Positions 8,402 to 34,148 of a stretch of 34,231 bases of DNA are shown here, piece after piece. The position numbers were made by a program, and so were the translations under genes. The notes under the pieces were generated by a model. The model was given only the letters and a program-made list of their open reading frames with translations, was not told the DNA's origin and ran no database searches. Every line of letters starts with the position of its first letter. Position 1 is the first letter of the stretch. This stretch comes from Lactiplantibacillus pingfangensis (GTDB lineage Bacteria; Bacillota; Bacilli; Lactobacillales; Lactobacillaceae), in the NCBI RefSeq assembly GCF_005404945.1, contig NZ_BJDG01000029.1, positions 1-34,231 of the forward strand, written 5' to 3'.

Positions 8402-8589
8402 CCGCTTCCAGTCGCCGCTGATTACATGCGGACGAGGGACCAGGATAAGCCTGAGAAACGTCTTATCCTTCGCCCGGAATAGTCGCACAACCCGCAACTA
8501 TCCCGGACAGTCCGTCCTGTAAGGCCGTCAAAAATCGCCGCCCAACACGACCTTCACGCCCGATGCAATCAGCGGCGACTTCCAGCTAG
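8402..8589 (-). repeat. Structured repeat, copy 1
   Basis: One of four related intergenic elements of about 187 bp. On the minus strand it begins AGCTGGAAGTCGCC and ends GGCGACTGGAAGCGG. The ends pair (GTCGCCGCTGAT with ATCAGCGGCGAC). Inside are the hairpins ATAGT(T)GC...GCGACTAT and AGGATAAG...CTTATCCT, plus the shared blocks GTCCGGGATAGTTGCG and TTCCGGGCGA. No open frame of interest. Its orientation is opposite to copy 2. Confidence 0.9.
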
Positions 8590-8937
8590 ATGGCTATCCG
8601 AATTCATGTTATCAAGGATGAAAGTTGCTGGCACATGATTGTCTTAGCGTTATTTCGGCTAAGACCTATCAGAGTAGTCTTACATCACGATTATCAGAAA
8701 CGCGCCTATGAATCAAAATCTAATAAACCATTTGCAATTCATGCTGTAAGTGTAACGGTTAGCCTTACGCTTTCAAACTTTAACAAGCTTAAAACGCAAC
8801 TAATACTCATCAATCTTTTTACTTCAAAACTTCTCGACAAAATTAATTTTCAAAACTACAGTCAAAATACCGAGAAAAATATTCCAGTCCCAAAAATCGT
8901 TGATTTTGATAACCGATACAGTTAAAAAACAGTCATT
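8590..8937. other. Spacer between two inverted structured repeats
   Basis: An A/T-rich 348-bp stretch. A 111-codon open frame runs through it but has no good ribosome binding site and a composition unlike a protein of this genome, so it is not called. The only structure seen is the hairpin GTCTTAGC/GCTAAGAC (8641-8648 with 8658-8665), which has no T-tract after it. Nothing else is recognised. Confidence 0.5.
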
Positions 8938-9126
8938 TAGCTGAAGGCGGTTGCTGATGCCATCGAGCGTGAAAGTCCCGTTAGATTGGCGTTTTTTGCC
9001 AATTTTACGGGACGGACGGTCCGGGATAGTTGCGGTTTTGGCAACCATTCCGGGCGAGGGAGAAGACCGGTTCTCAGGCTTCTCCCGGTCCCACGCTCGC
9101 ATGACATCAGCAGCCGCCGGAAGCGG
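8938..9126 (+). repeat. Structured repeat, copy 2
   Basis: Same family as 8402-8589, on the plus strand. The outer stem is GCGGTTGCTGAT/ATCAGCAGCCGC. Inner stems are GTCCCGT...ACGGGAC with ATTGGC/GCCAAT at its tip, ATAGTTGC/GCAACCAT, and GGGAGAAG/CTTCTCCC. Base pairs differ from copy 1 but pairing is kept. It lies head to head with copy 1 and just downstream of the yabR terminator. Confidence 0.9.
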
Positions 9127-9154
9127 CTATCTATCCTTACCCAACAATTAAACT

Positions 9155-9196
9155 AAAAAAAACACCCGCACAGACCTCAATAGTCTCGCACGGGTG
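9155..9196 (-). terminator. Terminator of the pth-to-yabR cluster
   Basis: Minus-strand stem CACCCG(T)GC.GAGAC...GTCT.GTGCGGGTG (9163-9196) followed by eight Ts (9155-9162). It lies about 40 nt after the yabR stop codon and ends this minus-strand block. Confidence 0.9.
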
Positions 9197-9235
9197 CTTG
9201 AATTTAACTAAATTAAATGGCGAGTAGCATCACGC

Positions 9236-9778
9236 TTAGCTTCGACGACCACCACGGCCGCCACGCTTACCTTCAGTGTTACGCTTCAAGGTTGCCAAGC
9301 GATCTTCACTATCCTTTAAGAAGCCAGACATCAATGAATCAAAGTCATCCTTCTTAGGTTCATGTTGTCGTGATTGGAAACGGCCACCGCCGTTACCGCC
9401 ACGACCATGGAAATTATTTGGTCGGTGACTGCCGCCACCATTGCTTTGATGTTCGTTGTGGTCAGAGTGACCATGATTATTGCTAGGTCGACTATTATTG
9501 CCGCCCTGGTGACTGTTATGATGTTCATGTTCCCCTTGCGGATGATCAACAGCCTTCCGAATGGACAGCCCAATTTTGCCGTCATTACCAACAGTTAACA
9601 CTTTGACGGTCACTTCATCGCCGACACTCAAAACATCATGGATGTCTTTAACAAATCCATCGGAAACTTCACTGATGTGCACCAGCCCCGTTTGATTGTT
9701 ACCTAGGTTCACGAACGCACCAAAATTAGTGATCCCAGATACTTTACCAGTGACTTTCGTACCTACTTCAATTGCCAT
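9236..9778 (-). CDS. yabR: S1-domain RNA-binding protein (YabR/CvfD-like)
   Basis: A 180-residue cytoplasmic protein with one N-terminal S1 RNA-binding fold (about 1-75: GTKVTGKVSGITNFGAFVNL, then GLVHISEVSDGFVKD, then GDEVTVKVL). The family includes B. subtilis YabR and CvfD, a ribosome-associated regulator. After residue 80 comes an unusual His/Asn/Gly-rich low-complexity section, then FLKDSEDRLATLKRN and an RGGRGGRR basic end. The S1 core matches the shorter relatives; the His/Asn insert lengthens it. ATG 9778 has AGGAGG about 13 nt upstream, a slightly long spacing. It sits after divIC, as in Bacilli, with its own extended -10 promoter. Confidence 0.92.
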   Translation of the reverse strand: MAIEVGTKVTGKVSGITNFGAFVNLGNNQTGLVHISEVSDGFVKDIHDVLSVGDEVTVKVLTVGNDGKIGLSIRKAVDHPQGEHEHHNSHQGGNNSRPSNNHGHSDHNEHQSNGGGSHRPNNFHGRGGNGGGRFQSRQHEPKKDDFDSLMSGFLKDSEDRLATLKRNTEGKRGGRGGRRS

Positions 9779-9813
9779 AAAAAAAGTTGTTCCTCCTATG
9801 AAATAATGGTTTT

Positions 9814-9822
9814 AGTATAGCA
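9814..9822 (-). promoter_or_regulatory. Extended -10 promoter for yabR
   Basis: Minus strand TGCTATACT (TATACT at 9814-9819), with no convincing -35. A small inverted repeat AGTAT-AGC-ATACT covers it. Confidence 0.4.
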
Positions 9823-9902
9823 TACTTTGTGAAATGTTGAGTTAAATTTTCACGGGTCCTCTCGAAAATGGTCTACCTAAAAATAACTGCACTAAAGATT
9901 GA

Positions 9903-10301
9903 TTAATTAGCAGTTACGTCCGCCGCATTGTCATTTGGTAAACTATAAACCGTTTCGCCACTCTTCGTATAATCATACTTCGACCGCAATAATTTCTGGA
10001 GATAGTCATCATTATTGAGCTGCTTGATTTGGCTATTGAGCTTGGCATTTTTCCGTTGTTCCTGTTTCAAATTAACTTGACTAGTTGCAACTTGATGATT
10101 GACTTGACTAAGGTTTGCACGCGTATTGATCAACTGATACCCAAAGAATAATACTAACGCCCCAAAAATAGCGACAATCAAAATAAAGCGTCGCCGGCGA
10201 ACTTGGCTAGCACGATCAGAATAGCCTTGCTTATCAGAGGCTATTTGTCGCGAATAATCATTATTTAAGTGTTCGACGTTATTGCGTGACCCATTTGTCA
10301 T
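9903..10301 (-). CDS. divIC: DivIC/FtsB-type cell division protein
   Basis: A 132-residue single-pass membrane protein of the divisome (septum formation initiator family), partner of FtsL and DivIB. Seen: a basic cytoplasmic N-terminus (VRRRR), one transmembrane helix (RFILIVAIFGALVLFFGYQL, about 38-57), then a Leu/Gln/Lys heptad coiled coil and the conserved DDYLQKLLRSKYDYTKSGE end. ATG 10301 is chosen; AAAGGA lies 12-14 nt upstream, and an in-frame TTG seven codons earlier overlaps that site. It has its own promoter (10337-10365), so it can be made independently of the genes before it. Confidence 0.93.
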   Translation of the reverse strand: MTNGSRNNVEHLNNDYSRQIASDKQGYSDRASQVRRRRFILIVAIFGALVLFFGYQLINTRANLSQVNHQVATSQVNLKQEQRKNAKLNSQIKQLNNDDYLQKLLRSKYDYTKSGETVYSLPNDNAADVTAN

Positions 10302-10336
10302 GTTGTGTGTCAGTCCTTTCAAATTGTGTTGACTAA

Positions 10337-10365
10337 ATTATAACAACTTCAACCGGTGGTGTAAA
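10337..10365 (-). promoter_or_regulatory. divIC promoter
   Basis: Minus strand TTTACA (10360-10365), 17 nt, TATAAT (10337-10342): consensus -10 and good -35, in the 134-nt gap between rqcP and divIC. Confidence 0.75.
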
Positions 10366-10435
10366 CGACATCATCACGATTAGACCAATGTTTACGGTCA
10401 TTCTAATAAACCGATTAAGCTAATTGACCGACAAC

Positions 10436-10723
10436 TTAATCACTGAATGGCTGCCGATAATCCGTCTTGTAATCCTCACTGACAATGTCATACATCAGTT
10501 CAGCATCGTTTTTCTTAGTTGTTTCCAACAATTGATTAACTTTAATGGTTAAGGTTTTGTTCCCAAAACCAATGATCAATTCGTCACCAACACTCACATT
10601 GCTTGAAGACTTGGCAACTTTACCATTGATTTGAATTCGGCCTTTATCGGCGATTTCTTTGGCAACCGTTCGCCGTTTAATAATCCGTGAAACTTTCAAA
10701 AATTTATCTAAACGCATACTCAT
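10436..10723 (-). CDS. rqcP: RqcP, S4-domain ribosome quality control protein
   Basis: A 95-residue cytoplasmic protein consisting mostly of an S4 RNA-binding fold ([20 protein letters not shown]..., then [13 protein letters not shown] and [10 protein letters not shown]). In Bacillus the homologue YabO/RqcP binds the obstructed 50S subunit and supports RqcH-driven poly-alanine tailing of stalled chains. ATG 10723 follows AAAGGA with about 9 nt spacing; a longer open frame has no such site and lies within the flippase gene. It begins 3 nt after the flippase stop codon, so they form one unit. Confidence 0.93.
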
Positions 10724-10725
10724 TA

Positions 10726-12324
10726 TTAATGTTCCTTTCCTTTGAGAACTGACTTCATGACACGTTTGCCATAGGGGAGCACTAACCACTCTCGAATCGT
10801 GAACAATCGAACCGCGATCGCTCCCGCGACAAATACGACTACGCCGACAATCACACCGACCAGCGTAATCATGCCAGTCATCCAGCGATCGTTAGCTAAG
10901 ATTGGCCCAACTAACGATTGAATTTCGTGACTCGTTAATAAAACGGCCATACCCATGATACCGCTGACCAGAACTAATTTGACTAAATAGCCACTTTCTA
11001 ACAAGACCTGTTGTAAATCCTCGGGTGACCCAATCCACATGATGGCAAACATCACAGCCAAGCTGGCAACAGTGGCCAGACTAGCCCCGTTGATGCCAAA
11101 ATGGACAACCATCAAATAATTGAGGCCCACCTTGGTCGCCAAGCCAGCGATAATTCCGACAATCATTGCCGTGTATTGATCTAAACTTTGTAGCACACTA
11201 GTGTACGTGGTGATCAAAGCGGCAAATAGAATACTAAAAACATAGACCCGTAATGCAGTTGTCCCTTCCATTGAACCGAATAGCAGTCGGTTGATTTGTG
11301 GCATCAAGGCCACCAAACCGACCGTGGCTGCCATCGACAAGGCAAGGCTCACATGAACCATCGCACGCGTATGGCGTTTAAACTCGATGACTTGCCGCTT
11401 CGCGAGTGCATTTGTCAAGGCTGGTAATAATGTCGCTGAAAATGAGGTTGCGACCACTAACCCTAATTGCACCAGTGGTTGCCCACGGTCATAGACCCCC
11501 TTGATCGACTTCGCTGCTTCAATCGGCAAGCCTTGTCGAACTAAGCCGCGCATGACGGAGAACGAATCGACTAGTTGTAATAAGATCACAACTGCAGCCA
11601 CGAGACAGAGCGTCCCACCCTCGACAATAAAACGGTGGGCTAACTTGCGATAACTAGGTAGTGGATGCGTGGCGATTGGCGCCGGGGCCAATAAATGACG
11701 CAACCCAAAGCTGACAAAGATTAATGAGGAACAAAGTGCGGCAATGGGGGCCGAACTCATCGCCCAAGCGCCCATATGGTAATCATCCCAACCACGATGA
11801 AGACTGAAATACGCGGCCATAATAATCACACCAACCCGGACAGTTTGTTCAATCAACTGCGAAACTGCCGTCGGTCCCATCAAAAAGTTGCCTTGGTAAT
11901 ACCCCCGTCCGGTCGCTAACCACGGCATAAAAATAAACATCCAAGCAACCGAGTCAATAATGGGCGCTAGCTTGATATCGCCCATCCGCAACGCAATCCA
12001 ATTCGCACCAAACTGGAGCACTAAAAAGATGACTAATGATAACGCGCTTAAAATATGAAAGGCGCGTCGGGTGACCAAGGACTTGCTAGTCTCATCCGGC
12101 TGCTCCGCAACTAATTTAGAAATAAAGGTTGGAAACCCATTCAATGCAAAGGTCATGCCAATCCCGTAAATGGGATAAATCTGCTGATAAACGTAGAAAC
12201 CGGTATTACCCACCATATTTTGAAATGGAATCCGGTAGACTGCACTTAGAATCTTCGCCACTAACGACGAAATTGAAAGTATCAAAGCCCCCCGAAACAT
12301 GGTGTTCAGGTGATCTTTCGGCAT
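10726..12324 (-). CDS. MOP-superfamily lipid/polysaccharide flippase (SpoVB/MurJ-like)
   Basis: A 532-residue polytopic membrane protein with about 14 hydrophobic helices. The start ([22 protein letters not shown]) and the [18 protein letters not shown] stretch are typical of the YabM/SpoVB/MurJ branch. Members flip lipid-linked sugars such as lipid II across the membrane; the exact substrate cannot be read from sequence. The ATG at 12324 is preceded by GAAGGGAA. It starts 19 nt after mfd and leads directly into rqcP, as in B. subtilis (mfd, spoVT, yabM, yabN, yabO), with spoVT and yabN absent here. Confidence 0.9.
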
Positions 12325-12343
12325 AACAATTCCCTTCTACCGA

Positions 12344-15874: not shown

Positions 15875-15891
15875 AGCGACTTTTCCTCCTA

Positions 15892-16449: not shown

Positions 16450-16483
16450 TTTAAGTGAAAGCTCCTATAGTCCCGTTGACATG

Positions 16484-16518: not shown

Positions 16519-16569
16519 AGCGTTACTTGCACGGTTAATTAATAGTTTTAGTTTTTAGGGTCTCCGGTT

Positions 16570-16607: not shown

Positions 16608-16641
16608 TGACGACAACCATAACCACAAATTTAGTGCAATC

Positions 16642-16906: not shown

Positions 16907-17875
<969 letters not shown>

Positions 17876-20787: not shown

Positions 20788-20799
20788 GTGTGCTAAGTT

Positions 20800-20838
20800 C
20801 CTCCTAGTTTTTTAACGTGGGATGGTTACGAACCACGT
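20800..20838 (-). promoter_or_regulatory. preQ1-I riboswitch controlling queT translation
   Basis: On the minus strand a 6-bp stem ACGTGG/CCACGT closes a 12-nt loop (TTCGTAACCATC) and is followed by TTAAAAAACTAGGAGG. The A-rich tail and the C-containing loop match the class I preQ1 H-type pseudoknot (as in Bacillus queC). The tail includes the queT Shine-Dalgarno, so ligand binding would hide it. Confidence 0.88.
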
Positions 20839-20861
20839 TTTGAAAATGACAAGCGGTTTAC

Positions 20862-21103: not shown

Positions 21104-21622
21104 TCACGGCTAAATATAGACGCTATTTTGAGTGACCGATCACCTAAAAATCTTAGCTAGATGTCGACCGAACTAACCGGCATTTAAAAACAGGCCATTC
21201 AATGCTCAACGATTTTTGTTTTTCTTCAAAATCTGCCAAAATTTTTGCCAGGAAAATCGCTGACTTCCTATTTGCTGTGTGGTAACTCAATTAGAGATAC
21301 AGGGCTCTTCTTTGTCACCCAGACTTCCTACCAAGAGAAATTTCACACTAACTCATCAGCTTGGTCGGATCACAAAAAAAGTTGCCAACATTGCAGCAAC
21401 TTCTCCAATAAACACGATTCACAACCAATCACTCATACGTGTAATAATTTTAATGCTTTAAGTCAAGGCACTAAAGGTGGCAAATATAAAAAGAAACGTA
21501 GACAGGATCATATCAGTAACGGTCCTCCCTGAACCAGATTCGCGGTGCATGTGCTATCGGTCTGAATCGTTGTGCTATAACCTAGTCAAATTGCAATTCT
21601 GCCGGTCTTCGCTAAGTTTAAT
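21104..21622. other. Gene-poor stretch between the inverted repeat and structured repeat copy 3
   Basis: No confident gene. It holds a short minus-strand frame of 17 codons (21458-21511: starts MILSTFLFIFATF) with GGGAGG 12 nt upstream, and a clear terminator further on. Two direct TGTGCTAT copies lie at about 21549-21581. Possibly a small or decayed toxin-like transcript. Confidence 0.35.
21374..21402 (-). terminator. Orphan terminator on the minus strand
   Basis: Minus strand AAGTTGC, 10-nt loop, GCAACTT and a run of seven Ts (21374-21380). There is no confident gene before it; argF ends 490 nt upstream and repeat copy 3 lies between. It could end the argF transcript or a small RNA. Confidence 0.65.
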
Positions 21623-21807
21623 CTGCTGGAGGTTGGGACTGATAGCATCGGTCGTGATGGTGGCGTTACATCGGCCGTTTTTGCCGAGGTTACACCACGG
21701 ACGGTCCGGGACACTTGCGATCTTTGCAAGGGTTCCGGGCGAGGGCCAAGACGTCCCTGGCTTGGACCGGTCCCACGACCGCATGTTATCAGTCCCAACC
21801 GGAAGTG
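21623..21807 (+). repeat. Structured repeat, copy 3
   Basis: Same family as copies 1, 2 and 4, plus strand. Outer stem GGTTGGGACTGAT/ATCAGTCCCAACC, then TCGGCC...GCCGA, ACACTTGC/GCAAGGGT and GGGCCAAG/CTTGGACC. It lies 85 nt beyond the argF stop codon. Sequence before it (TTCTGCCGGTCTTCGCTAA) also resembles the flank of copy 4. Confidence 0.9.
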
Positions 21808-21891
21808 AAACCTGTTTGGGCTAGTTACTAACACGATAAGGCTTACTTTCAAATTTCATCTTTCACCGCTTTAACCAAGAAGACGCGCTTT

Positions 21892-22911
21892 TCACTTGAA
21901 GAGGGTCTCTGGAATAAAGAGATTGCCCAAACTCACGGCCATGATTGCCTTAATCGCGGGCATCCGATTAGCGGCTTCCGTAAAGACGACAGATTTGGAC
22001 CCATTGAAGACCTCATCCGTGATTTCAATGGCTGGTAAGTGATACTTTTCGCCTAAGGCCGCACCCACTTCGGTTTGATGGTCATGTAGTGCTGGTAAAC
22101 AGTGCATGATGATCGTCTCGTCTTTACCGGTTTGCGCTAATAAGGCGGCATTAATTTGGAAAGGTAACAGTTGCTTGATGCGCGCGCCATAATCCACCTG
22201 CTCCCCCATCGAAACCCAGACATCCGTATAGAGCGCATCCGCCTGCGCAACCGCCGCCAGCGGATCGTCAGTAATTAAAATGTTACTCCCAGTTTGATCT
22301 GCGTACCCTTGGGCGAGTTTGACCACTTTCGGATCGGGCTGTAGCTGGGTTGGCGCCCCAATATGAATATTCACACCTAACATCGCGCTCGTCACCAACA
22401 AGCTATTCGCCATATTATTCCGGCCATCACCGACATACGTCAGCGTCAGTCCAGCTAAATGCCCAAAGTGTTCCTTTAATGTCAGAAAATCCGCAATCAT
22501 CTGCGTCGGATGCCAGTCATCGGTTAGACCATTCCAGACCGGAACACCGCTATATTCGGCCAGTTGCTCGACCGTTTGCTGCGAAAAGCCCCGAAACTCA
22601 ATGCCATCAAACATCGAACCCAATACTTTCGCCGTATCAATCACAGATTCTTTTTTGCCGAATTGGATATCATTTTTGCCTAAGAACTCTGGATGAGCAC
22701 CTAAGTCATTAGCCGCCACGGTAAACGCGGAACGGGTCCGGGTCGACGTTTTTTCGAATAAGAGTGCAATATTTTTGCCTTGTAAATAAGGATGCGGAAT
22801 ATGATTGGCCTTGAGTGTTTTTAAGTGGCTCGCAAAGTCAATTAAGTAGGTCAGTTCCGCCGGTGTAAAGTCGATCTCTTTTAAAAATGATGCTCCTGCA
22901 AAATGGCTCAT
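21892..22911 (-). CDS. argF: Ornithine carbamoyltransferase
   Basis: A 339-residue cytosolic enzyme joining carbamoyl phosphate and ornithine to citrulline. The carbamoyl phosphate loop STRTR is at 56-60, followed by the [15 protein letters not shown] region, [14 protein letters not shown] (catalytic Cys-Leu-Pro) and the ornithine loop. Length is normal. ATG 22911 shares one base with the argD stop codon (TAATG), so translation is coupled. It is the last gene of argCJBDF. Placement with biosynthetic arg genes rather than arcA/arcC marks it as anabolic. Confidence 0.96.
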
Positions 22912-24065
22912 TAAACCGCCTCCGTTTCAAATTGGGCTAAGACTGTCGCAATCGTTTGAACGCCAGCCAGCAAGTCTTCAACTGACATCACTAATGGTGG
23001 TAACAACCGCAATGTGTTATCGCCAGCAGACAAGGTTAATAAGCCGGCTTGTTGTAAGGCCGTAATCACCTTAACCACTGACACATCTGGCACTAAGTGA
23101 ATGCCAATCATGAGGCCCTTCCCCGTCAATCGCGCCACCATCGGTAACCCAGCGACTTGTTGGTCTAAGGCTTGCCAAACTTGCTGGGCTTTTGCTTGCA
23201 CATCAGTTAAAAATGTCGGCGTCAAATTAGTCAACACCGCTTGGGCGGCCGCCATCGCTAAGGCATTGCCGGCAAACGTCGACCCATGGCTACCTGGACC
23301 AAAAGCACTCGCGAATTGGGCCCGTCCAACCATGGCACCCACAGGTAAACCATTAGCTAATCCCTTGGCCGTCGTATAAATATCCGGATCTAACCCATAG
23401 CCTTCATAAGCAAACCGGTAGCCGGTTCGGCCAATTCCCGTTTGCACTTCGTCAATAATCAACAAGACCTGATTGGCTTGACACTTAGCTTGAACCGCTT
23501 GTAGCCATGCTTTTTGGCCTGCAAAGACCCCACCTTCGCCTTGAACCACTTCTAAAATCACCGCTGCTAGATCCGGCGTAATTTGTGCTAAAGCCGCCGG
23601 ATCATTATAAGTGGCAAACGCCACATCTGGCACTAACGGCGCGTAACCCGCTTGAATACTAGGGTTGCCAGTCATTGACATTGAGCCATACGTCCGCCCA
23701 TGAAACGACTGATAAAAAGCTAAAATTTTCGTTTTGCCCGTATATTTACGGGCGAGCTTCAACGCCGCTTCATTGGCCTCGGTTCCCGAGTTGGCAAAGA
23801 ACACTAAGCGGTCCTCACCATGAACGAGTAACTTGGCAACTGCATCTTGCAACGTATTTTCATACAAATTCGAGGTATGCCAAATTTTTGGCAACTGTGC
23901 CTGAACCGCTGCTTGGATTGTGGGATTTTGATAACCAAAATTGCACACGCCGATACCGGACGTAAAGTCTAAGTAGGTTTGACCATGCGCATCCGTGAGG
24001 CGCACGCCTTGACCACTTTTTATTTCGATTGGAAAACGTTGATACGTTGGATAGACATATTTCAT
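22911..24065 (-). CDS. argD: Acetylornithine aminotransferase
   Basis: A 384-residue class III PLP-dependent transaminase that converts N-acetylglutamate semialdehyde to N-acetylornithine. Features: [19 protein letters not shown] (PLP phosphate site), [23 protein letters not shown] (PLP-ring Asp), the lysine in [15 protein letters not shown], and [13 protein letters not shown]. Length is standard. ATG 24065 overlaps the argB stop codon by 4 nt. Confidence 0.96.
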
Positions 24066-24808
24066 ACTGCCGCCTCCTGAATGATTGCTGTTCCTGGTTG
24101 ATCAATGGCATTCGTGATTACCGCTTGCTGAACGCCGGCCTGAATCGCTTGGATTGCCGCTTGAACTTTTGGTCGCATGCCGGCCGTAATGACCGCTTGC
24201 TGGGTTAAGGCCTGGGCTTGATGTGGGGACAAGGTGGTCATGACCGTCCCGTGATGCATAATGCCGGGAACATCGGTCAGTAAGACTAACTTTTCAGCGT
24301 GCAATTGTTGCGCTAACGTGGTCGCTGCCATATCGGCATTCACATTGAGCCACGCGCCAGTTGTGGTTAGCGCTAATGGCGCCAATACCCCAATTTTCGT
24401 CGTTAAATAGGCTCGCAATTTAGGTCCATCAACTTGGGTGACTTGCCCGACAGCTCCGAGCTGCGCTTGATTAAGATAAGTGCCGGTCAACAGTTGATTG
24501 TCGGCCGCATTTAAGCCAATAACCGGTAAGTCATGCTGCGCCAGTTGGGTCAGCAATGCGGGTTGGGCATCACCTAATAACACCATTTTAGTTAACGCTA
24601 ACGTGGCCGCATCCGTGACCCGGAGCCCGTTAAGCTTATGTACGGGCAATTGTAGTTTCGTCGTCAATTTTGTAATCATTGGGCCACCGCCATGCACAAT
24701 CAAGAGTTGCTTACCTTGTTCGTGCCACTGCTGGAGCTGTTGAAAAAAGCGCTCACTCAGTTGCTGAATCGCTTGCCCGCCGATTTTGATAATAATCAGA
24801 TTTTTCAT
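24062..24808 (-). CDS. argB: Acetylglutamate kinase
   Basis: A 248-residue amino acid kinase that phosphorylates N-acetylglutamate. It has IIKIGGQAI at the start (phosphate-binding lysine), VHGGGPMIT, LKNGLRVTDAAT-like LNGLRVTDAATL, NVNADMAA, and VLLTDVPGI. It is short, lacking the N-terminal helix found in arginine-inhibited hexameric forms; whether it is feedback-inhibited cannot be read here. ATG 24808 has GGGAGG 6 nt upstream; the in-frame GTG two codons earlier lies too close to that site. Confidence 0.95.
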   Translation of the reverse strand: MKNLIIIKIGGQAIQQLSERFFQQLQQWHEQGKQLLIVHGGGPMITKLTTKLQLPVHKLNGLRVTDAATLALTKMVLLGDAQPALLTQLAQHDLPVIGLNAADNQLLTGTYLNQAQLGAVGQVTQVDGPKLRAYLTTKIGVLAPLALTTTGAWLNVNADMAATTLAQQLHAEKLVLLTDVPGIMHHGTVMTTLSPHQAQALTQQAVITAGMRPKVQAAIQAIQAGVQQAVITNAIDQPGTAIIQEAAV

Positions 24809-24822
24809 TGGCACCCTCCCGT

Positions 24823-26031
24823 TTAAGTATGATAGCTCGCGTTAATTTTGACGTAATTGTAAGTGAGGTCACAACCCCACGCTTGGCCGTGCGCCGTGCC
24901 GTGATGTAGATCAACATCAATCATGATCTGTGCCTGCTTTAATGACGTTTTCACAGCTGCTTCATCAAACGGCAACGCCAAACTAGCGGCGACTAAGGGC
25001 ATGCCATTCATTGCAATATCAACTTGATTAATATCAATATCGGCATCCGTCGCGCCAATCGTACTAATGATTCGACCCCAGTTTGGATCTTCGCCAAAAA
25101 TCGCGGCCTTGACCAAATTCGACCCAACGATGGCTTTAGCAACTTGTTGGCCATCCAACGCAGTAGCGGCGTGCGCCACGTTACATTCGACCAACTTGGT
25201 TGCCCCTTCGCCGTCAGCCGCAATCTGCTTTGCTAACTGACCAAGGACGTAATGGAGCGCCTGATTAAAAACTTCATAATCACTTGTCCCCGGCACCACC
25301 GTCGGATTATCGGCCAACCCATTCGCCATTGTCACAACCATGTCATTAGTCGAAGTATCCCCATCAACCGTAATTTGGTTGAAGGTCGAGTCAACGTTTT
25401 CACTTAATAAATCCTGTAAGACTTCCCCATCAATTTGGGCATCCGTCGTCACAAAACCTAACATCGTCGCCATTTTTGGATGAATCATGCCAGAACCTTT
25501 GGCAAAACCAGTGATCGTCACAAGTTGACCACTCAGTTCACACTGCACACTAATCGTTTTAGGGTGCTTATCCGTTGTCAAGACGGCGTATGTGACCGCA
25601 TCACTCTTAGTCGGGGTGAGTTGCGGTAGACCATTTTTAATTAAGGCCATCGGGAGCTGGGCACCAATTAAGCCCGTCGAAGCGACCCCAATCAAACTTG
25701 GATCAACCGCCAGCTTGTTCGCTAACCAGCGTTGTTCTTGTAAGGCATTGTCCCAACCTTGTTGGCCAGTGCAGGAATTCGCAATCGCACTATTTAACAG
25801 GAGCCCTTGCAACTGATGATTTTGATTGATCATCGTTTTCGTTAATTTTGTTGGCGCCGCTTGAAATTGATTGGTCGTATAAGTTCCAGCAGCGGCAGCC
25901 GGAACTTTCGAAAAGAGCCAGCCGAAATCTGGTTTAGCTTTCCGCAGACCAATATGAATCCCATCGCTGTAAAATCCGACCGGCCATTGAAAGGCGACCT
26001 TTTGAAATTTGATACTCGTTAAAACTGGCAT
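24823..26031 (-). CDS. argJ: Bifunctional ornithine acetyltransferase/N-acetylglutamate synthase
   Basis: A 402-residue enzyme that moves the acetyl group from N-acetylornithine to glutamate, and may also use acetyl-CoA. The self-cleavage site before the nucleophilic Thr is in GEGATKLVEC; also MIHPKMATMLGFVTTDA, VDGDTSTNDMV, and the NSAIANSCTGQQG region. Length is full. The presence of ArgJ and the absence of argE in the cluster indicates the cyclic acetyl pathway. ATG 26031 follows AGAGGAAG. Confidence 0.96.
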   Translation of the reverse strand: MPVLTSIKFQKVAFQWPVGFYSDGIHIGLRKAKPDFGWLFSKVPAAAAGTYTTNQFQAAPTKLTKTMINQNHQLQGLLLNSAIANSCTGQQGWDNALQEQRWLANKLAVDPSLIGVASTGLIGAQLPMALIKNGLPQLTPTKSDAVTYAVLTTDKHPKTISVQCELSGQLVTITGFAKGSGMIHPKMATMLGFVTTDAQIDGEVLQDLLSENVDSTFNQITVDGDTSTNDMVVTMANGLADNPTVVPGTSDYEVFNQALHYVLGQLAKQIAADGEGATKLVECNVAHAATALDGQQVAKAIVGSNLVKAAIFGEDPNWGRIISTIGATDADIDINQVDIAMNGMPLVAASLALPFDEAAVKTSLKQAQIMIDVDLHHGTAHGQAWGCDLTYNYVKINASYHT

Positions 26032-26048
26032 TGAAACGACTTCCTCTC

Positions 26049-27074
26049 TTATGGAAAAACGGGTAACATGGGTAATCCGGCGGTTGGGGCCAACTTAAAT
26101 AACTGATTAAAGTTTTGAATTGCTTGACCCGCAGCCCCTTTCATCAAGTTATCAATCACACTGACGACCAAGATCGTCTTAGTCGCGGGATTAACATTGA
26201 CCCCAATCGCACAATTATTCGATCCTATCACCGTCTTCAACGTGGGCATTCCAGTTGGCAAAATTTGAACAAAGGGTTGGTCTGCGTAGACTCGTTCAAA
26301 GGCAGCGCGGACTTGGGCGGTCGTGATTGGTTGGGCAGCCTTAACATAAATTGAGCTCATAATGCCCCGTGTCACCGGAATGAGCGTCGTGGTGAACTCA
26401 ATCGCCGGAATTGCCGACCACCATTTTTTGAGTTGTTGCATGATTTCAGGAATGTGCTGATGTTGATTAAGTTTATATAGTTGTAAATTATCATTGACCA
26501 TCGTGAATTGACTCGTCGCCGCTAATTTCTTACCAGCGCCAGACAAGCCCGACTTGGCATCGACCACAATACTAGTCGGATCAATCAACTGCTGTTGAAC
26601 TAGCGGCGCCAGTCCTAATAAGGTTGCCGTCGCATAACAGCCGGGATTAGCCACATAAGTGGTTAAGTGGTGATTGAATTCGGCCAAGCCGTAACTCGCT
26701 TGAGCTAAAGCCGTGGCTGGGGCGGCCGGACGATGATACCAATGTGTATAGTCGGCTGGATCTGGCAACCGGAAGTCCCCAGATAGATCAATCACCGGAA
26801 ACTTCGCCGCAACTAGTGGCAGTGCTAATTGACTCGTGACCCCAGCCGAAGTTGCAAAGAAAATTAGGTCGTTGGTCGCCATCACCGCCTGTGCCTCAAA
26901 TGGTCGAATTATGGCGGTTTCTTTCTGATACATCGGTGCAATGGTCTTTAATGCGACCGGCTCAGCATCCGGATGACCGTATAAGTTAATGTGGTCAATC
27001 GCCGGATGTTGTTTTAAGAGCGCATATAACGTCATCCCGCTATAACCGCTGACCCCAACTAGTGCAACTTGCAT
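26049..27074 (-). CDS. argC: N-acetyl-gamma-glutamyl-phosphate reductase
   Basis: A 341-residue NADPH-dependent dehydrogenase for the third step of arginine synthesis. The NADP-binding GVSGYSGMTLYALL is at 7-20 and the catalytic Cys in VANPGCYATATLLGLAP at about 146; the conserved KSGLSGAGK and HQHIPEI follow. Length is normal. It is the first gene of argCJBDF, 17 nt before argJ, with its promoter and an ARG-like box in the divergent region. ATG 27074 follows GAGGTGATTTT. Confidence 0.96.
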   Translation of the reverse strand: MQVALVGVSGYSGMTLYALLKQHPAIDHINLYGHPDAEPVALKTIAPMYQKETAIIRPFEAQAVMATNDLIFFATSAGVTSQLALPLVAAKFPVIDLSGDFRLPDPADYTHWYHRPAAPATALAQASYGLAEFNHHLTTYVANPGCYATATLLGLAPLVQQQLIDPTSIVVDAKSGLSGAGKKLAATSQFTMVNDNLQLYKLNQHQHIPEIMQQLKKWWSAIPAIEFTTTLIPVTRGIMSSIYVKAAQPITTAQVRAAFERVYADQPFVQILPTGMPTLKTVIGSNNCAIGVNVNPATKTILVVSVIDNLMKGAAGQAIQNFNQLFKLAPTAGLPMLPVFP

Positions 27075-27139
27075 AAAATCACCTCAAATAATCAAAAATA
27101 GTTTCGTTAATGCATATCTATGCGTTTAGCATGCTTCAC

Positions 27140-27168
27140 ACTATATTCTCATCAAATGACAAATGCAA
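27140..27168 (-). promoter_or_regulatory. argC operon promoter
   Basis: Minus strand TTGCAT (27163-27168), 17 nt, TATAGT (27140-27145), giving a start about 60 nt before the argC ATG. Confidence 0.7.
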
Positions 27169-27175
27169 GTGTTTT

Positions 27176-27189
27176 TGAAAATTTATTCA
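27176..27189. promoter_or_regulatory. Candidate ARG box (ArgR operator)
   Basis: TGAAAATTTATTCA matches the palindromic ArgR/AhrC pattern TGAATNNNNATTCA at most positions. It is just upstream of the argC -35 and between the two divergent promoters. A/T-rich sequence continues for about 50 bp, with further weak half sites. Confidence 0.55.
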
Positions 27190-27257
27190 ATTTATTCTAT
27201 ACATTTGCATATTTAATCCATATAGACGGTATATATTCACAATTATTGTATTTTAGC

Positions 27258-27286
27258 TTGACTTCCCGTCAAAATAATTGTTTACT
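27258..27286 (+). promoter_or_regulatory. Candidate carAB promoter
   Basis: TTGACT (27258-27263), 17 nt, TTTACT (27281-27286), 54 nt before carA. The -10 is imperfect. The -35 lies in a small inverted repeat TTGAC-TTCCC-GTCAA. Confidence 0.45.
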
Positions 27287-27340
27287 TAGCTCACAGTTCA
27301 AAATGAATTTTAATCTATTTATTAGAAAGGACGTGCAGCG

Positions 27341-28411
27341 ATGCAAAAATTTTTAACTTTAGCGGATGGGGCCCAATGGATCGGAACGGCGATTGGTGAC
27401 AGTAACCGGACTGGCGCTGGTCAACTCGTCTTTAATACGGGGATGTCTGGCTACCAGGAAACAATTACTGATCCTTCTTATTTAAATCAATTAATTGCCT
27501 TCACCTATCCATTAATTGGTAATTACGGCATTGATCCGAGTGTCGACCAGGCCACGACCATTGGCACTCAGGCAATTATCGTGCATGAACTTGCCGACTT
27601 TAGCGATCATTACACTAGTCGTGACACGCTCGCACACTTTTTGACCGCTCACCATATTCCAGGAATTGCCGGGATTGATACGCGTGATCTCACGACACAT
27701 CTTAGAAAAACCGGTTCGCAAGCCGCAATTTTAAGTAACCAGCCGGTCAAGGACTTTGCGTCCGAATTCGCCGCTGTTCCGTTAAAAAAATTACCAGCAA
27801 AACCGTTGCCAGTTGGGGTGCAAAATGGTCAGCAACCTAACATTGTCGTGCTCGATTTCGGTGAAAAACAAGCCATCACGGATGCGCTGATTGCGCGTGG
27901 CTGTCAAGTCAACACGGTTCCCGCCACGACTTCATTCAAGGCCATCGCCGCCTATCAGCCAGATGGCATCTTATTGTCAAATGGCCCCGGTGACCCGCAA
28001 GCTTATAAAACCGTGCTACCACTCATTCGCCAATTGGCCGCCGCTTACCCCTTAGCTGGGATCTGTTTAGGCCATCAGTTGATTGCTTGCGCGTTTGGTG
28101 CCAAGACTTATCAACTGACATTCGGCCATCACGGCTTAAATCATCCGGTGAAAAACTGTACGACTGGCGAAGTCGTCATGACGGCCCAAAATCACGATTT
28201 TGCGGTAGATCCAGCTTCATTAGCTAAAACGCCCTTGGTCGTGACTTACACCGAACTGAACGATGGCAGTGTCGAAGGACTTAGCTTGCCACAGCAAAAT
28301 GTACAATCCGTCCAGTTTCACCCCGAAGCCCATCCGGGACCACAAGAAGCCGGCATCTTTTTTGACCAATTTATCCAAATGACTACTCAGGAGGCCGTTG
28401 CCAATGCCTAA
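27341..28411 (+). CDS. carA: Carbamoyl-phosphate synthase small subunit (arginine type)
   Basis: A 356-residue class I glutaminase that supplies ammonia to CarB. It contains [17 protein letters not shown] at the start, the catalytic Cys in [14 protein letters not shown], and the catalytic His-Glu in [10 protein letters not shown]. Length is near that of Bacillus CarA. ATG 27341 is preceded by GAAAGGA. It lies divergent to argCJBDF, the arrangement of the arginine-regulated enzyme in L. plantarum; a pyrimidine-regulated copy is expected elsewhere. The end overlaps carB by 8 nt. Confidence 0.96.
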
Positions 28412-31400
28412 AAACACTCAAATTAACTCAGTTGCCGTGATTGGTTCTGGCCCAATCAAGATTGGACAAGCGGCCGAATTCGACTACGCCGGTACCCAAG
28501 CGTGCCTAAGCTTAAAAGCGGCCGGCTACCATGTCATCTTAATTAATTCCAATCCGGCAACCATCATGACCGATCCCGAAACAGCGGACGAAGTCTATTT
28601 ACAGCCACTCAAACTGGCGAGTGTCACAGCCGTTTTAGAAAAAAGTCAGCCCGATGCGCTATTACCAACATTAGGCGGCCAAACTGGCCTAAATCTTGCC
28701 AAAGCACTCGATGAGGCTGGCGTCCTCAGCCGCTTACATATCAGTCTGTTAGGAACGTCATTAGCAACGATCAATCAAGCCGAAGACCGCGCCGCCTTCA
28801 AAACATTAATGACCCAGCTACAACAACCGATTCCGGCCAGCACGACCGTTCATCATGTTGCTTCGGCTTTAACTTTTGCCGCCAAAATCGGCTATCCGGT
28901 CATCGTTCGCCCGGCGTTCACGCTGGGCGGTTCGGGCGGCGGCATCGCTGATGACCCCACGGCACTCAAACAAATTTTGCAACGGGGACTCACAATGTCG
29001 CCGGTCAATGAATGCCTGATTGAGCAAAGTATCGCCGGTTTCAAAGAAATCGAGTTTGAAGTCATGCGTGACAACCTTGGGACTAAAATCATTGTTTGCT
29101 CGATGGAAAATTTTGATCCAGTTGGCATTCACACGGGCGACTCGATCGTTTACGCACCAGCACAAACGTTAAGCGATACGGAATTACAAACCTTACGAAA
29201 CGCCGCCCTCACAATTGTCGAAGCCTTAAATATCAAAGGTGGCTGTAACGTACAACTCGCGCAAGATCCCCACAGCGCCCAATACTATGTCATCGAAGTG
29301 AATCCCCGGGTCAGTCGGTCATCAGCGCTCGCTTCCAAAGCTACCGGCTACCCAATTGCTAAAATTGCGGCCGAAATCGCCGTGGGCATGAACTTATCTG
29401 AAATTAAGAACCCGGTCACTAAAACAACTTACGCCGCCTTCGAACCGGCTCTCGACTATGTTGTCGCCAAGATTCCACGCTTCGCATTTGATAAATTTCC
29501 AACCGCCGACGCGCATTTAGGGACGCAAATGAAAGCGACTGGCGAAGTCATGGCGATTGGCACGACGCTTGAAGAAGCAACGCTAAAAGCCGTCGCATCG
29601 TTAGAACTCAATGCCACGGTTCAGACAACCTTATTGCCATTACAGCGACTCACTAAGTCGCAATTAGTGGCTGAATTAACGCAACCAACTGACCAACGGC
29701 TCTTTTACTTATTCGCTGCTTGTGCCAACCATTGGCCATTAGCCAAACTGGCCGAATTAACCAAAATTACGCCATTTTTCTTGAGTAAGTTACAACATAT
29801 CATGACCCTAGCCCAACAATTACAAACGTTACCCACTGTGGATAACTTATTGGCCGCAAAAAGATATGGCTTAAGTGCGGCGACTTGTGCACATTACAGT
29901 GGTTTATCCACAGCTGCCATCGTCAACGCGACCGCCCAGCAACCGCTTGTGTATAAAATGGTGGATACTTGTGCCGGCGAATTTGCCAGTGCCACGCCAT
30001 ACTTTTATAGCACCGCCTTTGGCACAACTAATGAAAGCCAGCCACTCGGCCATAGTGTACTCGTACTCGGTTCCGGTCCCATTCGAATTGGACAAGGCAT
30101 TGAGTTTGATTACACAACCGTCCATTGTGTTAAAGCGATTCAGCAAGCCGGCTATCAGGCGATTGTCGTCAATAATAATCCTGAAACCGTCTCAACTGAT
30201 TTTTCCAGTTCAGATAAATTATATTTTGAGCCGCTTACTTTGGCACGCTTACTCCCCATTATTCAGCTTGAACAACCGCTTGGCGTTATTGTGCAATTTG
30301 GTGGTCAAACCGCGATTAATCTTGCAAAACAATTGGCTGACCACGGCGTCAAAATTTTAGGAACGAGTGTCACTGCCACCGATTTAACTGAAAATCGGCA
30401 AGCCTTCGCAGACTTGTTGGCCCAACAACATATCGCCCAAGCAACCGGCACCACCGTCAAAAATCTGACGGAAGCCGAACAAGCTGCGCCCAAGATCGGT
30501 TATCCACTGCTAGTCCGGCCCAGTTTCGTTTTAGGTGGTCGGGCGATGGCAATTGTCCACAATGCCGGTGAGTTAACCCCGGTCATTAAAGCCGCGGTTG
30601 CCGCCGGCCATGGTGCCCCCATTTTGATGGATCACTACTTAGCTGGTCAAGAATGCGAAGTAGACGTCCTCGCCGACGGACAAAACGCTTGTATTCCAGG
30701 CATTATGTCCCATATTGAAGGCGCGGGGATTCACTCCGGCGATTCGATGGCCGTTTATCCCCCACAGCACTTATCCACAGCTGTCCAAACGCAACTCATC
30801 AAAATCGCAACTCAGATTGCCCGGGCATTGCATTGTGTTGGCCTACTGAATATTCAATTCGTCGTGACCGACCAAGTTTACGTGATTGATGTGAATCCCC
30901 GGGCGAGTCGGACGGTACCCTTCATGAGTAAAGTCACCCAGTTACCCCTAGCCCAATTGGCGACTCGCCTCATTCTGGGTGAAAGTTTGACAACTTTAAA
31001 CTTGCCCAGTGGTTTGTATCCTGTCAGAGATGGCGTCGCCATTAAAGCGCCCGTTTTCTCTTTCAACAAATTAGCCCAACTCCCCACGGCCTTAAGTCCG
31101 GAAATGAAATCCACCGGCGAAACGATTGGTTTGGGGAAAACGTTTGACCAAGCTTGGCGCGCTGCAATCACCGACAGTTATCAGTTGGAAAACTGGCAGT
31201 TAAGCGACGGCATTGTGACCGATGCAACCACTTGGGCCTTACCCGCGGTTCAATCTTGGGCTCAGCAGCAGACCGTCCCCATCACCGTGGTGACAACACT
31301 TGCTGCGTTACAAGCGGACACGCCGGCTGTCTTTTTCAGTTTGGATGCCACTGGACTGGCCCCGTTAGTCACTTGGGCGTTAAACCATGCGAAACCACTC

Positions 31401-31460
31401 CTCACGGCTTTGGATACTTTGAAAACTTTGGTCGCCGTCAATCAAGTTCCCGTAAGATAA
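28404..31460 (+). CDS. carB: Carbamoyl-phosphate synthase large subunit (arginine type)
   Basis: A 1018-residue enzyme of two homologous ATP-grasp halves that make carbamoyl phosphate from bicarbonate, ammonia and two [23 protein letters not shown] opens half one and [20 protein letters not shown] half two (about residue 552); each half has the VRPxFxLGG and IEVNPRx[11 protein letters not shown] motifs. The C-terminal MGS-like allosteric domain is reduced: after [11 protein letters not shown] only about 100 residues remain and its first part looks missing, compared with E. coli (1073 residues). ATG 28404 has CAGGAGG 9 nt upstream and lies within the end of carA. It contains four DnaA-box 9-mers. 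Confidence 0.96.
29837..29956. promoter_or_regulatory. Three DnaA boxes inside carB
   Basis: TGTGGATAA (29837-29845), TTATCCACA (29904-29912) and TGTGTATAA (29948-29956, complement TTATACACA). Two are the strict consensus and all fit TTATNCACA. They lie 46-58 nt apart. A coding explanation cannot be excluded. Confidence 0.6.
30771..30779 (+). promoter_or_regulatory. DnaA box in the second half of carB
   Basis: TTATCCACA, the strict consensus, with the following GCTG also shared with the box at 29904. Confidence 0.5.
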
Positions 31461-31488
31461 CACGAGTTATTTTTCAATAGTTAGATTC

Positions 31489-31575
31489 TTATCCACAAGC
31501 AACTGCTTAGTGACTGTTCACAAGTCATCAACCAAGTTAACTTAACTCGCCGCCTTAATCGGTGCTTGTGGATAA
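31489..31575. promoter_or_regulatory. Inverted pair of DnaA boxes after carB
   Basis: TTATCCACAAGCA (31489-31501) and TGCTTGTGGATAA (31563-31575) are perfect 13-bp inverted repeats 61 nt apart, each holding the strict DnaA box. They lie in the non-coding gap between the converging carB and mazF, before the shared terminator. Confidence 0.65.
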
Positions 31576-31592
31576 TAGCTAATGACTAAACT

Positions 31593-31642
31593 AAAAAATC
31601 AGCACTCGCCTAGTCAATTTGACTAAGTGAGTGCTGATTTTT
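31593..31642. terminator. Bidirectional terminator between carB and mazF
   Basis: Outer stem AAATCAGCACTC/GAGTGCTGATTT with inner TAGTCAA/TTGACTA, flanked by A6 on the left and T5 on the right. Confidence 0.92.
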
Positions 31643-31703
31643 ACCTGCGCTCGGTGACTCACACCGAAACGAATCAATTATGTAAATGACTTATCCCCAT
31701 CAA

Positions 31704-32096
31704 CTAAGGTTGCATGGTGCGTCGCGGTCGCCGTTTCGCCCGATCAGCTAATCCAATGCTGACCTGCAAGGCATTATCGACTCGTTGCATGGTTTGTTCG
31801 TCTAAGTGCGTGACCCGGTCCTTCAATCGCTGTTTGTCGATTGTCCGAACTTGTTCTAAAAGAACAACTGAATTCTTCTCAATCCCCGTGTGGGCGGCGT
31901 TGATGTTCACATGCGTGGGCATTTTGGCCTTTTGAACTTTAGCCGTAATGGCCGCAACAATTACAGTCGGACTGTAATGATTGCCAACGTTATTTTGGAC
32001 GATTAACACTGGCCGCATTCCGCCTTGTTCAGACCCAACGACCGGTGAAAGATCAGCATAAAAGATGTCACCACGCTTAATGTCAGCTGCAGCCAT
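31704..32096 (-). CDS. mazF: MazF/PemK-family endoribonuclease toxin, solitary
   Basis: A 130-residue protein with the full PemK/MazF fold: [65 protein letters not shown] and the C-terminal helix. Such enzymes cut mRNA at short sequences. ATG 32096 has GGGAG 8 nt upstream; ATG 32120 is an alternative that also has GGGGAG nearby. In Bacillus the antitoxin gene lies between alr and this gene; here none is found in the 185 nt between them. It has its own promoter after the alr terminator. The C-terminal RAKRRPRR is basic. Confidence 0.92.
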
Positions 32097-32162
32097 CGCC
32101 TCATCTCCCTTTTTACTCATAGCTCTCCCCATAGGCACTAGTTGTGACTATACTTGAGTTTA

Positions 32163-32192
32163 ATAATAGCATGAACGCTTAACTTTTAGCAA
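32163..32192 (-). promoter_or_regulatory. mazF promoter
   Basis: Minus strand TTGCTA (32187-32192), 18 nt, TATTAT (32163-32168), located after the alr terminator. Confidence 0.55.
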
Positions 32193-32225
32193 CCGTTACC
32201 AACCCTAGGATTAGTTAAAACCACC

Positions 32226-32266
32226 AAAAAAGCCTGAATCTCGGACTTGGTAATCCATCATCAGGC
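32226..32266 (-). terminator. alr terminator
   Basis: Minus strand GCCTGA...TCAGGC (32261-32266 with 32232-32237) followed by TTTTTT (32226-32231), 15 nt after the alr stop codon. The loop is long (23 nt). Confidence 0.75.
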
Positions 32267-32280
32267 AATAAAAATAGTTG

Positions 32281-33408
32281 TTATTCAGTATAAACTCTTG
32301 GCAAACGCGTTGCTAAACCACAAGCAATTTCATAGTGAATCGTGCCACAATAATCGGCAACTGACTGTAATGAAATGGCGTTGTCCCCATCTTGTCCGAC
32401 CAACGTCACTTTGGCGCCAACTGGTACCTCGTGAGGCAAGCGCACCATCATCTGATCCATGCAAACCCGACCAACGATTTCACAAAACTGACCATCAACT
32501 AGAACATGGAATCCTTGCAAGCGGCGTTCATAGCCATCAGCGTAACCGATTGGCACGGTGCCAATCCATTCATCTTGCTTGGCAGTATAGGTCGCCCCGT
32601 AACTGATGGACTTACCTCGAGCAAGCTTTTTAACAAAAGACAGCTCAGCGGTCAACGATAAGGCTGGTTGTAGATGATAGGGCGCGCTCAGTTCGATCCC
32701 AGATGGGTTCAACCCATACAAAGCCACACCAAAACGAATCATATTACCGTTACAAGCTTGATGCCACAAACTCGTCGCTGAATTGGACACATGCACATAA
32801 CGTGGCAATTCAGGAACGACCGCAATCAGCGCTTTCCAGTTGGTCAGTTGATGGGTGAAATACGTATCATCGGCTTGGTCCGCTGTGGCAAAATGAGTAA
32901 AAATCCCTTCAAAATCAAATGGTGTCTCAGTTTGACTCAAGGTCTTCACCGCAACGGCAAGCTCTGTTGGCGTTTGAAACCCAATTCGTCCCATGCCAGT
33001 ATCCAATGCTAAGTGCACATGCAATGGTGTCTGAACCTGATTGGCGGCGAGAATTGACTGTGCCTGATCTAACCACGCTTGTGACCCGACTGCGACTGAA
33101 ATACCTTTTTCCGCAATCAATGGCGCATATTCTGGTTCGGTAATCCCCAACACCAAAATCGGTTCGGTAATCCCAGCAGCACGTAAGGCCAGTGCTTCGT
33201 CCAAGATGGCAACGCAAAAACCTGTCGCGCCCGCTTGCTTCGCGGCTTGGGCCACTTGAATAATCCCATGACCATAACCGTTTGCCTTCACCACTGCCCA
33301 AAGTTCGGTCAATGGATCTTTCCGTGTCATTTCTTCATTGATATTATGTTTAATTGCCTGCAAGTCAATTTTAACTTGTGTGTGGCGGTGTTCCCCAATT
33401 ACAACCAT
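32281..33408 (-). CDS. alr: Alanine racemase
   Basis: A 375-residue PLP-dependent enzyme that makes D-alanine for peptidoglycan. The PLP-lysine is Lys41 in [22 protein letters not shown] and the ISYGATYTA catalytic tyrosine region follow, with [10 protein letters not shown] near the C-terminus. ATG 33408 overlaps the acpS stop (TGATG) and has AGAGG about 9 nt upstream; the frame is open further up but inside acpS. acpS-alr is the common Firmicutes pair. Confidence 0.96.
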
Positions 33409-33770
33409 CACGATTTGCCTCTTTCCAAGATAACTTGTGTCATTACTAATTGATCCGTATGTGAAATTGAAATCCAAGCCGTCCCATCAAATGGCTGTCG
33501 GGTAATTTCCGGACGGCCGAGCGCATTATCCAAAATCTCAATGTCTTGAAAGCCAACCTGGGCACCAATGCCAGTGCCAAAAGCTTTGCTATAGGACTCC
33601 TTCGCCGAAAACCGACCAGCCAGAAATTCGACGCGGCGCTTTTCGCCGTAACTGTTAAAGACCGCTAATTCCGCTGGCGTTAAAACCTTCTTCGGTAATT
33701 TGAGCCCTGCCGCTAACATGGCGGCGATGCGTGATAATTCAGTTAAGTCAATTCCGGTGCCATAAATCAT
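33408..33770 (-). CDS. acpS: Holo-[acyl-carrier-protein] synthase
   Basis: A 120-residue phosphopantetheinyl transferase that activates acyl carrier protein with CoA. The Mg-binding Asp8 is in GTGIDLTEL, and [16 protein letters not shown] is at about 51-66. The C-terminus has [21 protein letters not shown] 33770 follows AAAGGTGG at 8 nt; an upstream GTG four codons earlier overlaps that site. Translation is coupled to alr. Confidence 0.95.
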
Positions 33771-33844
33771 CACCCAGACCACCTTTCACTACTGATGTTT
33801 CCAATTTAACACAGTTTTCACCGACATAACAGACCTGTTAGCAC

Positions 33845-33894
33845 GCAACCTTTTCACTAAGTCATGAAAGGCGATACCTTAACTAGAAGGTTGC
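33845..33894. repeat. Inverted repeat upstream of acpS
   Basis: GCAACCTT (33845-33852) and AAGGTTGC (33887-33894) pair across a 34-nt loop that itself contains CTTTTCA/TGAAAG. No T-tract. It lies between acpS and the last structured repeat and may be a leader or an operator; no function can be assigned. Confidence 0.45.
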
Positions 33895-33958
33895 AAGATC
33901 AAAATTGCTAGTAACTACCGCCATGTCAATGATTAGGGCATGAAGATTATTAACATGG

Positions 33959-34148
33959 CCGCTTCCAGTCACCACTGATAACATGCCGCCGCGGGACCGG
34001 GTCAAGCCTGAGAAACGTCTTGGCCCTCGCCCAGAACCCTTGCACAAATCACAAGTGTCCCGGACGGTCCGTGGCGTAACGCCGGCAAGAAACATGCCGA
34101 CCCAACGCCACCTTCACGGCCGATGCTATCAGTGGCGACTTCCAGCTA
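33959..34148 (-). repeat. Structured repeat, copy 4
   Basis: Same family as the others, minus strand. Outer stem GTCGCCACTGAT/ATCAGTGGTGAC, GTGGCGT...ACGCCAC, ACACTTG..CAAGGGT and GGGCCAAG...CTTGACCC. It lies about 190 nt upstream of acpS. The minus-strand sequence to its right (TTCTGCCTGCTTCCGCTAA) resembles the flank of copy 3. The remaining 34149-34231 shows no gene. Confidence 0.9.

Follow-up and report, generated by a model that had tools for sequence, protein, structure and literature searches.

The stretch analysed here (the window) is the 34,231-nucleotide contig NZ_BJDG01000029.1 of Lactiplantibacillus pingfangensis, hereafter the host, and it carries four intergenic copies of a structured repeat unit of ~185 nt. 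Matches to R1, the covariance model used for our genome searches, place copy 1 at 8403..8586 on the minus strand (192.8 bits, with fold and covariation in agreement), copy 2 at 8940..9125 on the plus strand (205.3 bits), copy 3 at 21625..21807 on the plus strand (195.9 bits), and copy 4 at 33960..34146 on the minus strand (187.5 bits). Copies 1 and 2 are neighbours in '- +' order with a gap of 353 nt. A sequence-only reading of the window had located these copies and aligned them end to end; the positions and the alignment were borne out, and the folded span is slightly shorter than the extent first assigned to each copy. Its closing stem with three inner hairpins was recovered by RNAalifold on the four copies, as was the compensatory change: for 20 of the 72 predicted pairs, at least one copy has both partners altered.

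In the fold, a closing helix of ~25 pairs encloses a single hairpin as well as a short helix bearing two further hairpins. The folding energy of copy 2 is -119 kcal/mol compared to a mean of -67 kcal/mol (sd 4.2) for shuffled sequences, none of the 200 shuffles being equally low. Similarity searches in 37 fetched regions and the window gave 59 pieces of the unit in the host genome; 11 pieces shorter than 160 nt were excluded, and the remaining 48 were analysed as full copies. In these copies 97.2% of cells were paired (at most 40.9% in slid controls) and 25 of 63 pairs were changed on both sides, with 310 double-change cells against 102 in shuffled alignments (a count reached by none of 500) and at most 74 in slid ones. 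The share of standard pairs is 97% for host units and 93% for those of other genera; double changes far exceed controls, and a cross-genus alignment of 26 units retains the fold at 60% mean identity, together with the conserved unpaired motifs CGAG, AGAC..GGCT, and GTG. The covariation thus strongly supports the fold, as expected of a structured non-coding RNA. On the unit's own strand, G-U pairs outnumber A-C combinations in the host (158:35), in other species of the genus (52:13), in other genera (55:29), and in Companilactobacillus nantensis (195:52). Wobbles are few (G-U in 5.2%, 3.5%, and 2.4% of cells) and replacements are mostly Watson-Crick. The bias suggests a folded single strand of the unit's own sense; G-T is the better mismatch in DNA as well.

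When the sequence-only reading was followed up by covariance-model searches of the host genome and other lactobacilli, a large family was found. The host genome contains at least 142 R1 rows at no fewer than 141 places (one opposite-strand duplicate dropped, partial copies included), a lower bound obtained with at most 150 candidates scored, in which diverged partner units are mostly missing. Within the genus, 17 of 21 sampled genomes matched, with 1 to at least 126 rows each, and four gave no match. With the best six candidates per genome scored under strict filters, matches were obtained in 71 of 397 Lactobacillaceae genomes and 10 of 40 genera; the six matches in an order-level sample of 295, for which the number outside Lactobacillaceae is unstated, all fell within the family. 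The hosts named in a pattern scan that gave 78 stretches were Companilactobacillus nantensis, insicii, tucceti, huachuanensis, nodensis, and jidongensis, as well as Levilactobacillus yonginensis. As an example of abundance, the 148 rows found in one chromosome of 2.71 Mb, at ~175 nt each, make up about 1% of it. A second covariance model built from C. nantensis, R2, gained little beyond the 137 rows obtained with R1. Units cluster by genome: the nearest relative of all 48 host units lies within the host, and eight units of genome G001 share an average identity of 98%. This copy number and family-wide range, like the terminal repeats described below, go beyond what could be seen in the window alone; the divergent doublet had gone unremarked in the sequence-only reading.

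Complete elements contain two units with their 5' ends facing each other ('- +'), of which the R unit is strong and the L unit diverged. The same order was found in 10 of 10 host neighbours less than 500 nt apart (one overlapping same-strand pair excluded), in 15 of 15 neighbours within 600 nt in Companilactobacillus genome G328, and in 31 of 33 C. nantensis neighbours within 700 nt; two '+ -' pairs in G328 are separated by 1044 and 1150 nt. L-type starts and ends (AGTGGAG, CGGAACG) were seen again by eye in other genera. Single units are also frequent beside inverted doublets. With units near locus edges and short pieces excluded, fold pairing in C. nantensis was 97.1% for 63 single units and 96.7% for 62 doublet members (p=0.91), and single units were therefore rejected as decayed doublets. 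Nothing transposase-like was found between neighbouring units at four loci, which yielded one host gene that we take to be recX-like and one 69-residue frame.

In Lactiplantibacillus, many copies lie within an element with defined ends. This element is gene-free and, when complete, ~540 nt long: two diverged units placed head to head are flanked by tails of ~77 nt, with terminal inverted repeats of 13-14 bp and target duplications of 8-10 bp. Many elements of the host genus start with T(G/A)AAGGTTGAAAG and finish with CTTTCAACCTTTA, ~77 nt separating the R unit from the end; T(A/G)AAGGTTGAAAG is the 13-14-bp core of the terminal repeat, and the likeness extends further in one subtype. The right-end motif was found at 44 host sites compared to none for the reversed control. 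In G001, the end pair is 334-542 nt apart in 15 of 16 loci, and for G001 and host loci together most end pairs are 334-569 nt apart, the interior being filled by units and tails. Of 46 end pairs, among them a few that were paired spuriously, 18 had a target duplication scoring at least 8 (control rate 0.007).

Within the window, the ends are clear for copy 4, weak or decayed for copies 1 and 3, and absent for copy 2. The element around copy 4 (33883..34231, minus strand) has a clear right end at 33883, its motif lying 77 nt from the unit, and by comparison with complete relatives of ~540 nt its remainder is beyond the contig end. The contig ends at 34231 within this element, probably through an assembly break at the repeat. 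A decayed terminal-inverted-repeat element probably surrounds copy 1 (8362..8782, minus strand), with both ends at most two substitutions from the 13-base end motif and no recognisable target duplication. A possible and weaker case is the stretch around copy 3 (21471..21873, plus strand), where the left-end-like TAAAGGTGGCAAA at 21472 is three substitutions off the motif and a right-end-like stretch finishes 67 nt past the unit. No terminal repeats were seen around copy 2, the flanks of which scored at background.

In three sister species, G013 (locus L255), G017 (L256), and G004 (L257), the element ends are separated by 1507-1563 bp and delimit copies of an insertion sequence (IS). A full-length frame of 451 residues in L257 covers almost the whole IS4 model, and a nearly full frame of 440 residues in L255 matches from model position 55, its N-terminus being unlike the model; the two proteins matched the IS4 family NF049925 with 481.6 and 435.9 bits, respectively (cut-off 250). 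The transposase frame of L256 is broken into fragments and was left out of the protein scan. A 10/10 target duplication flanks L255, and L256 and L257 are without one. With its ends also found on either side of an IS4-family transposase gene in these species, the carrier resembles a miniature inverted-repeat transposable element (MITE) moved in trans. It has terminal inverted repeats, target duplications, and an autonomous IS with the same ends, and it is short and without a transposase of its own; its interior does not derive from the IS, as none of the three IS copies has a structured unit inside. The sequence-only reading had considered a hairpin-mobilised element, of which the mobile part is supported, but the terminal repeats, the 8-10-bp duplications, and the IS4-family transposase explain movement better than hairpins do.

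Empty sites in relatives, which that reading had proposed to map, were also found. In the interval between tilS and the S1-domain gene, the protein matches are 148 nt apart in G012, which is empty, and 568 nt apart in its close relative G020, which carries an element; the R unit of the latter is largely deleted, and near-identical direct repeats were noticed by eye. In ten syntenic stretches, nine species carry units in 13 intervals, nine of which are unit-free in the window. Loss occurs as well, as shown by relics noticed by eye at some sites that look empty. At L188, L185, and L184, in several species, elements were seen by eye to follow immediately on the S1-domain gene's terminator-like hairpin. 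In the window, the terminator-like hairpin and T-run of this gene (9153..9200, minus strand; found by eye, not predicted by a tool) adjoin copy 2. Insertion next to the terminator of the S1-domain gene may reflect a target preference. The same comparison revealed that G002, G010, G020, and G012 lack the argF-to-carB block at this place, which in the window occupies 21892-31460 between the queT-like gene and the mazF-like gene; these gene names in the arginine and carbamoyl-phosphate region are presumed.

In Companilactobacillus, the fold is present without detected ends or duplications, and it is separable from the IS4-type carrier. Conservation ceases 17 nt before the unit and within about ten nt after it. 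The 137 C. nantensis rows, which represent all 64 loci of this species among the 78 stretches, pair at 96.9% and contain 1409 double-change cells compared to 336 in shuffled and at most 157 in slid alignments, figures obtained from an alignment fitted to, and leaning towards, the model. Five orthologous sites of G328 and C. nantensis were compared. Of the aligned positions, 1250 of 1587 are conserved in the units (79%; 214 gap columns) and 375 of 683 in the spacer between units (55%; 440 gap columns); the outside parts keep 399 of 464 positions, gene ends included and alignable parts only (416 gap columns). A unit is missing at one of these sites and, by eye, one unit has seemingly been swapped for another subtype at two, so that copying or replacement must occur. 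As regards the initial claim that the folded form is selected, the keeping of the fold is strongly supported across genera and at orthologous sites, and copying between repeats also contributes; we infer that selection acts on the fold, rather than inter-repeat copying alone.

Based on these results, we consider it probable that the repeat is a structure-selected module of ~185 nt, the doublet of which serves in one genus as the cargo of an IS4-type MITE. In the proposed mechanism, the units would be kept by selection on the folded single strand and would have spread through Lactobacillaceae genomes. In Lactiplantibacillus, L(-) and R(+) would sit head to head between ~77-nt tails ending in inverted repeats, and an IS4-family transposase supplied in trans would recognise the ends common to its own IS, excise the element, and insert it with an 8-10-bp duplication, in several cases right beside the terminator of a gene. 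The structured doublet would thus be MITE cargo, present elsewhere in the family without those ends.

Several observations weigh against this interpretation. The flanks of Companilactobacillus units share no common end motif and have no excess of duplications at any offset; with ends and duplications undetected there, IS4 carriage cannot explain the whole repeat family. An inverted-flank test remained at control level for 15 pairs of G328, 16 of other species, and 7 wide pairs of the host; in this test even the positive set scored lower than its cross-element control, since the best matches are those between like ends of different elements. In Lactiplantibacillus, 28 of the 46 end pairs, including two of the three IS copies, have no score-8 duplication, no excision event was seen, and the evidence for an IS4-type transposase comes from sister species, the host genome lying outside the transposase search. 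Of the 13 intervals with units, four coincide with one in the window, namely G002 and G020 at tilS/S1 and two weak cases in G017, at queT/argF and beyond acpS. Finally, a single column gives 45 of the host's 158 G-U pairs, and the wobble excess is modest outside the genus.

With respect to transcription, we tentatively suggest that the structure may form in transcripts crossing the site, where a doublet would offer one sense-oriented fold from either side. A rival reading, in which the units are structured non-coding RNA genes or untranslated-region elements acting on transcripts and multiplied by mobile DNA, is conceivable though doubtful. It agrees with the cross-genus fold and its unpaired motifs, with the better conservation of units than of spacer at the orthologous sites, and with the excess of G-U over A-C; of the B. 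cereus bcr repeats, some of which have conserved folds, about half are reported to occur in mRNAs (PMC3446304). In contrast, no promoter signal was detected upstream of 133 C. nantensis units, and a promoter at the unit is thus not supported. Gene orientation also differs between the two species. In the host, where genes were called by simple frame calling, the 3' neighbouring gene runs towards the unit in 37 of 47 cases, and in tandem settings 19 of 21 units are antisense and 2 are sense, whereas of 34 single C. nantensis units in such settings, 23 are sense and 11 antisense. Divergent intervals are not avoided in C. nantensis (19 of 84 intervals with units vs 32 of 149 without). A 3'-of-gene rule, which holds in the host but not in C. 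nantensis, was accordingly rejected for the whole family. Within a given host contig (e.g., G000:C21, C6, and C14), units mostly share one orientation, doublet partners excepted. A replication-strand rule, which this uniformity had suggested, was unsupported, no such pattern being found in 250-kb bins of the single-contig G328 (origin not located).

It is unlikely that the inverted doublet itself moves in the manner of REPINs or BIMEs, with a Y1 (HUH) transposase cutting it out as a folded DNA single strand and with the IS4-type ends secondary in one genus. The nearly universal doublet order, the Companilactobacillus units without detected shared ends or duplications, and the strand-biased wobbles, which suit a folded single strand, would all fit such a system. 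However, Y1_Tnp was found in 13 of 21 genus genomes without tracking the element, in a test confined to Lactiplantibacillus, and it is absent from G001, G007, G010, G012, and G020, which carry 21, 54, 105, 105, and 94 rows, respectively. A Y1/IS200 or RAYT partner in the genus was therefore rejected, and because this partner test failed in five genomes we do not file the elements as REPINs. Moreover, single units keep their fold like paired ones, whereas REP singlets are reported to be probably defunct remnants (PMC3116915).

Mutation could provide another route to matching arms. Quasipalindrome correction proceeds by template switching, and this process, or copying between repeats, could keep paired arms alike without selection on the fold. 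The scarcity of wobbles, the mostly Watson-Crick replacements, the clustering of copies by genome, and the apparent subtype swaps at two of the five orthologous loci point in this direction. Arm correction does not, however, predict the unpaired motifs conserved across genera, and the wobbles are strand-biased; we regard this explanation as quite unlikely. Decidedly improbable, in our view, is an independent self-spreading folded RNA or single-stranded DNA, a counterpart of short interspersed nuclear elements, with more than 100 Companilactobacillus copies without ends or duplications, which would pair preferentially head to head with a resident copy and have been captured additionally by the IS4-type MITE in Lactiplantibacillus. 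Phage or plasmid carriage was unsupported in a search with one host element as sole query against collections that may omit the host's near relatives.

The sequence-only reading had offered no family name, and the searches gave none. At the gathering threshold, Rfam 15 produced no match on any window copy, and at E<=10 nothing was obtained within 8300-9250, the stretch with copies 1 and 2 to which the lax search was limited; a known Rfam RNA was rejected, there being no covariance-model match. The sole window match is a PreQ1 riboswitch elsewhere (20798-20842, minus strand), above the gathering threshold and upstream of a gene that we presume to be QueT-like. For seven loci of other species, Rfam matched only three group II intron pieces outside the units, all in L118 (5980-7798, minus strand) near C. 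nantensis units. No description of the repeat family was found in the literature searched, most subscription journals being outside its coverage.

Within the scope of Rfam and that literature, the units represent an abundant undescribed repeat in a family of food bacteria. Of two genera that share the fold, one has it between transposon ends and the other without them. A heavily covarying fold can thus be separated from the mobile element that carries it, which makes it possible to test whether such dispersed repeats serve the host, serve their own spread, or are maintained by mutation. Among known systems, MIC231 of Bacillus cereus is a MITE of IS4-family insertion sequences. Like IS4-family MITEs, the elements described here are short, gene-free, and present in many copies, with target duplications and with terminal inverted repeats common to an autonomous IS. 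In contrast to them, the interior consists of structured units that are absent from the three IS copies and is not a deleted IS, and the units also occur without ends in another genus. Elements with ends can therefore be classed as MITEs, except that their interior is not IS-derived. REPINs are inverted REP doublets linked to RAYTs and share with our elements the inverted doublet, extragenic location, high copy number, and compensatory changes (PMC3116915). They are built on a short palindrome rather than a ~185-nt unit with three hairpins; in addition, five element-rich genomes of the genus have no Y1 transposase, and singlets of the present unit keep their fold. The bcr1-bcr18 repeats of the Bacillus cereus group are likewise intergenic and interspersed, bcr1-3 being MITE-like and bcr10 and bcr18 having a conserved fold; they differ from the present case, in which mobility and a heavily covarying fold are combined in one element of another bacterial family (PMC3446304). 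Rfam structured RNA families share a covarying fold with conserved unpaired motifs, but none of their covariance models matches. By analogy, the module would thus resemble a MITE in its movement and REPINs or bcr repeats as a dispersed folded unit.

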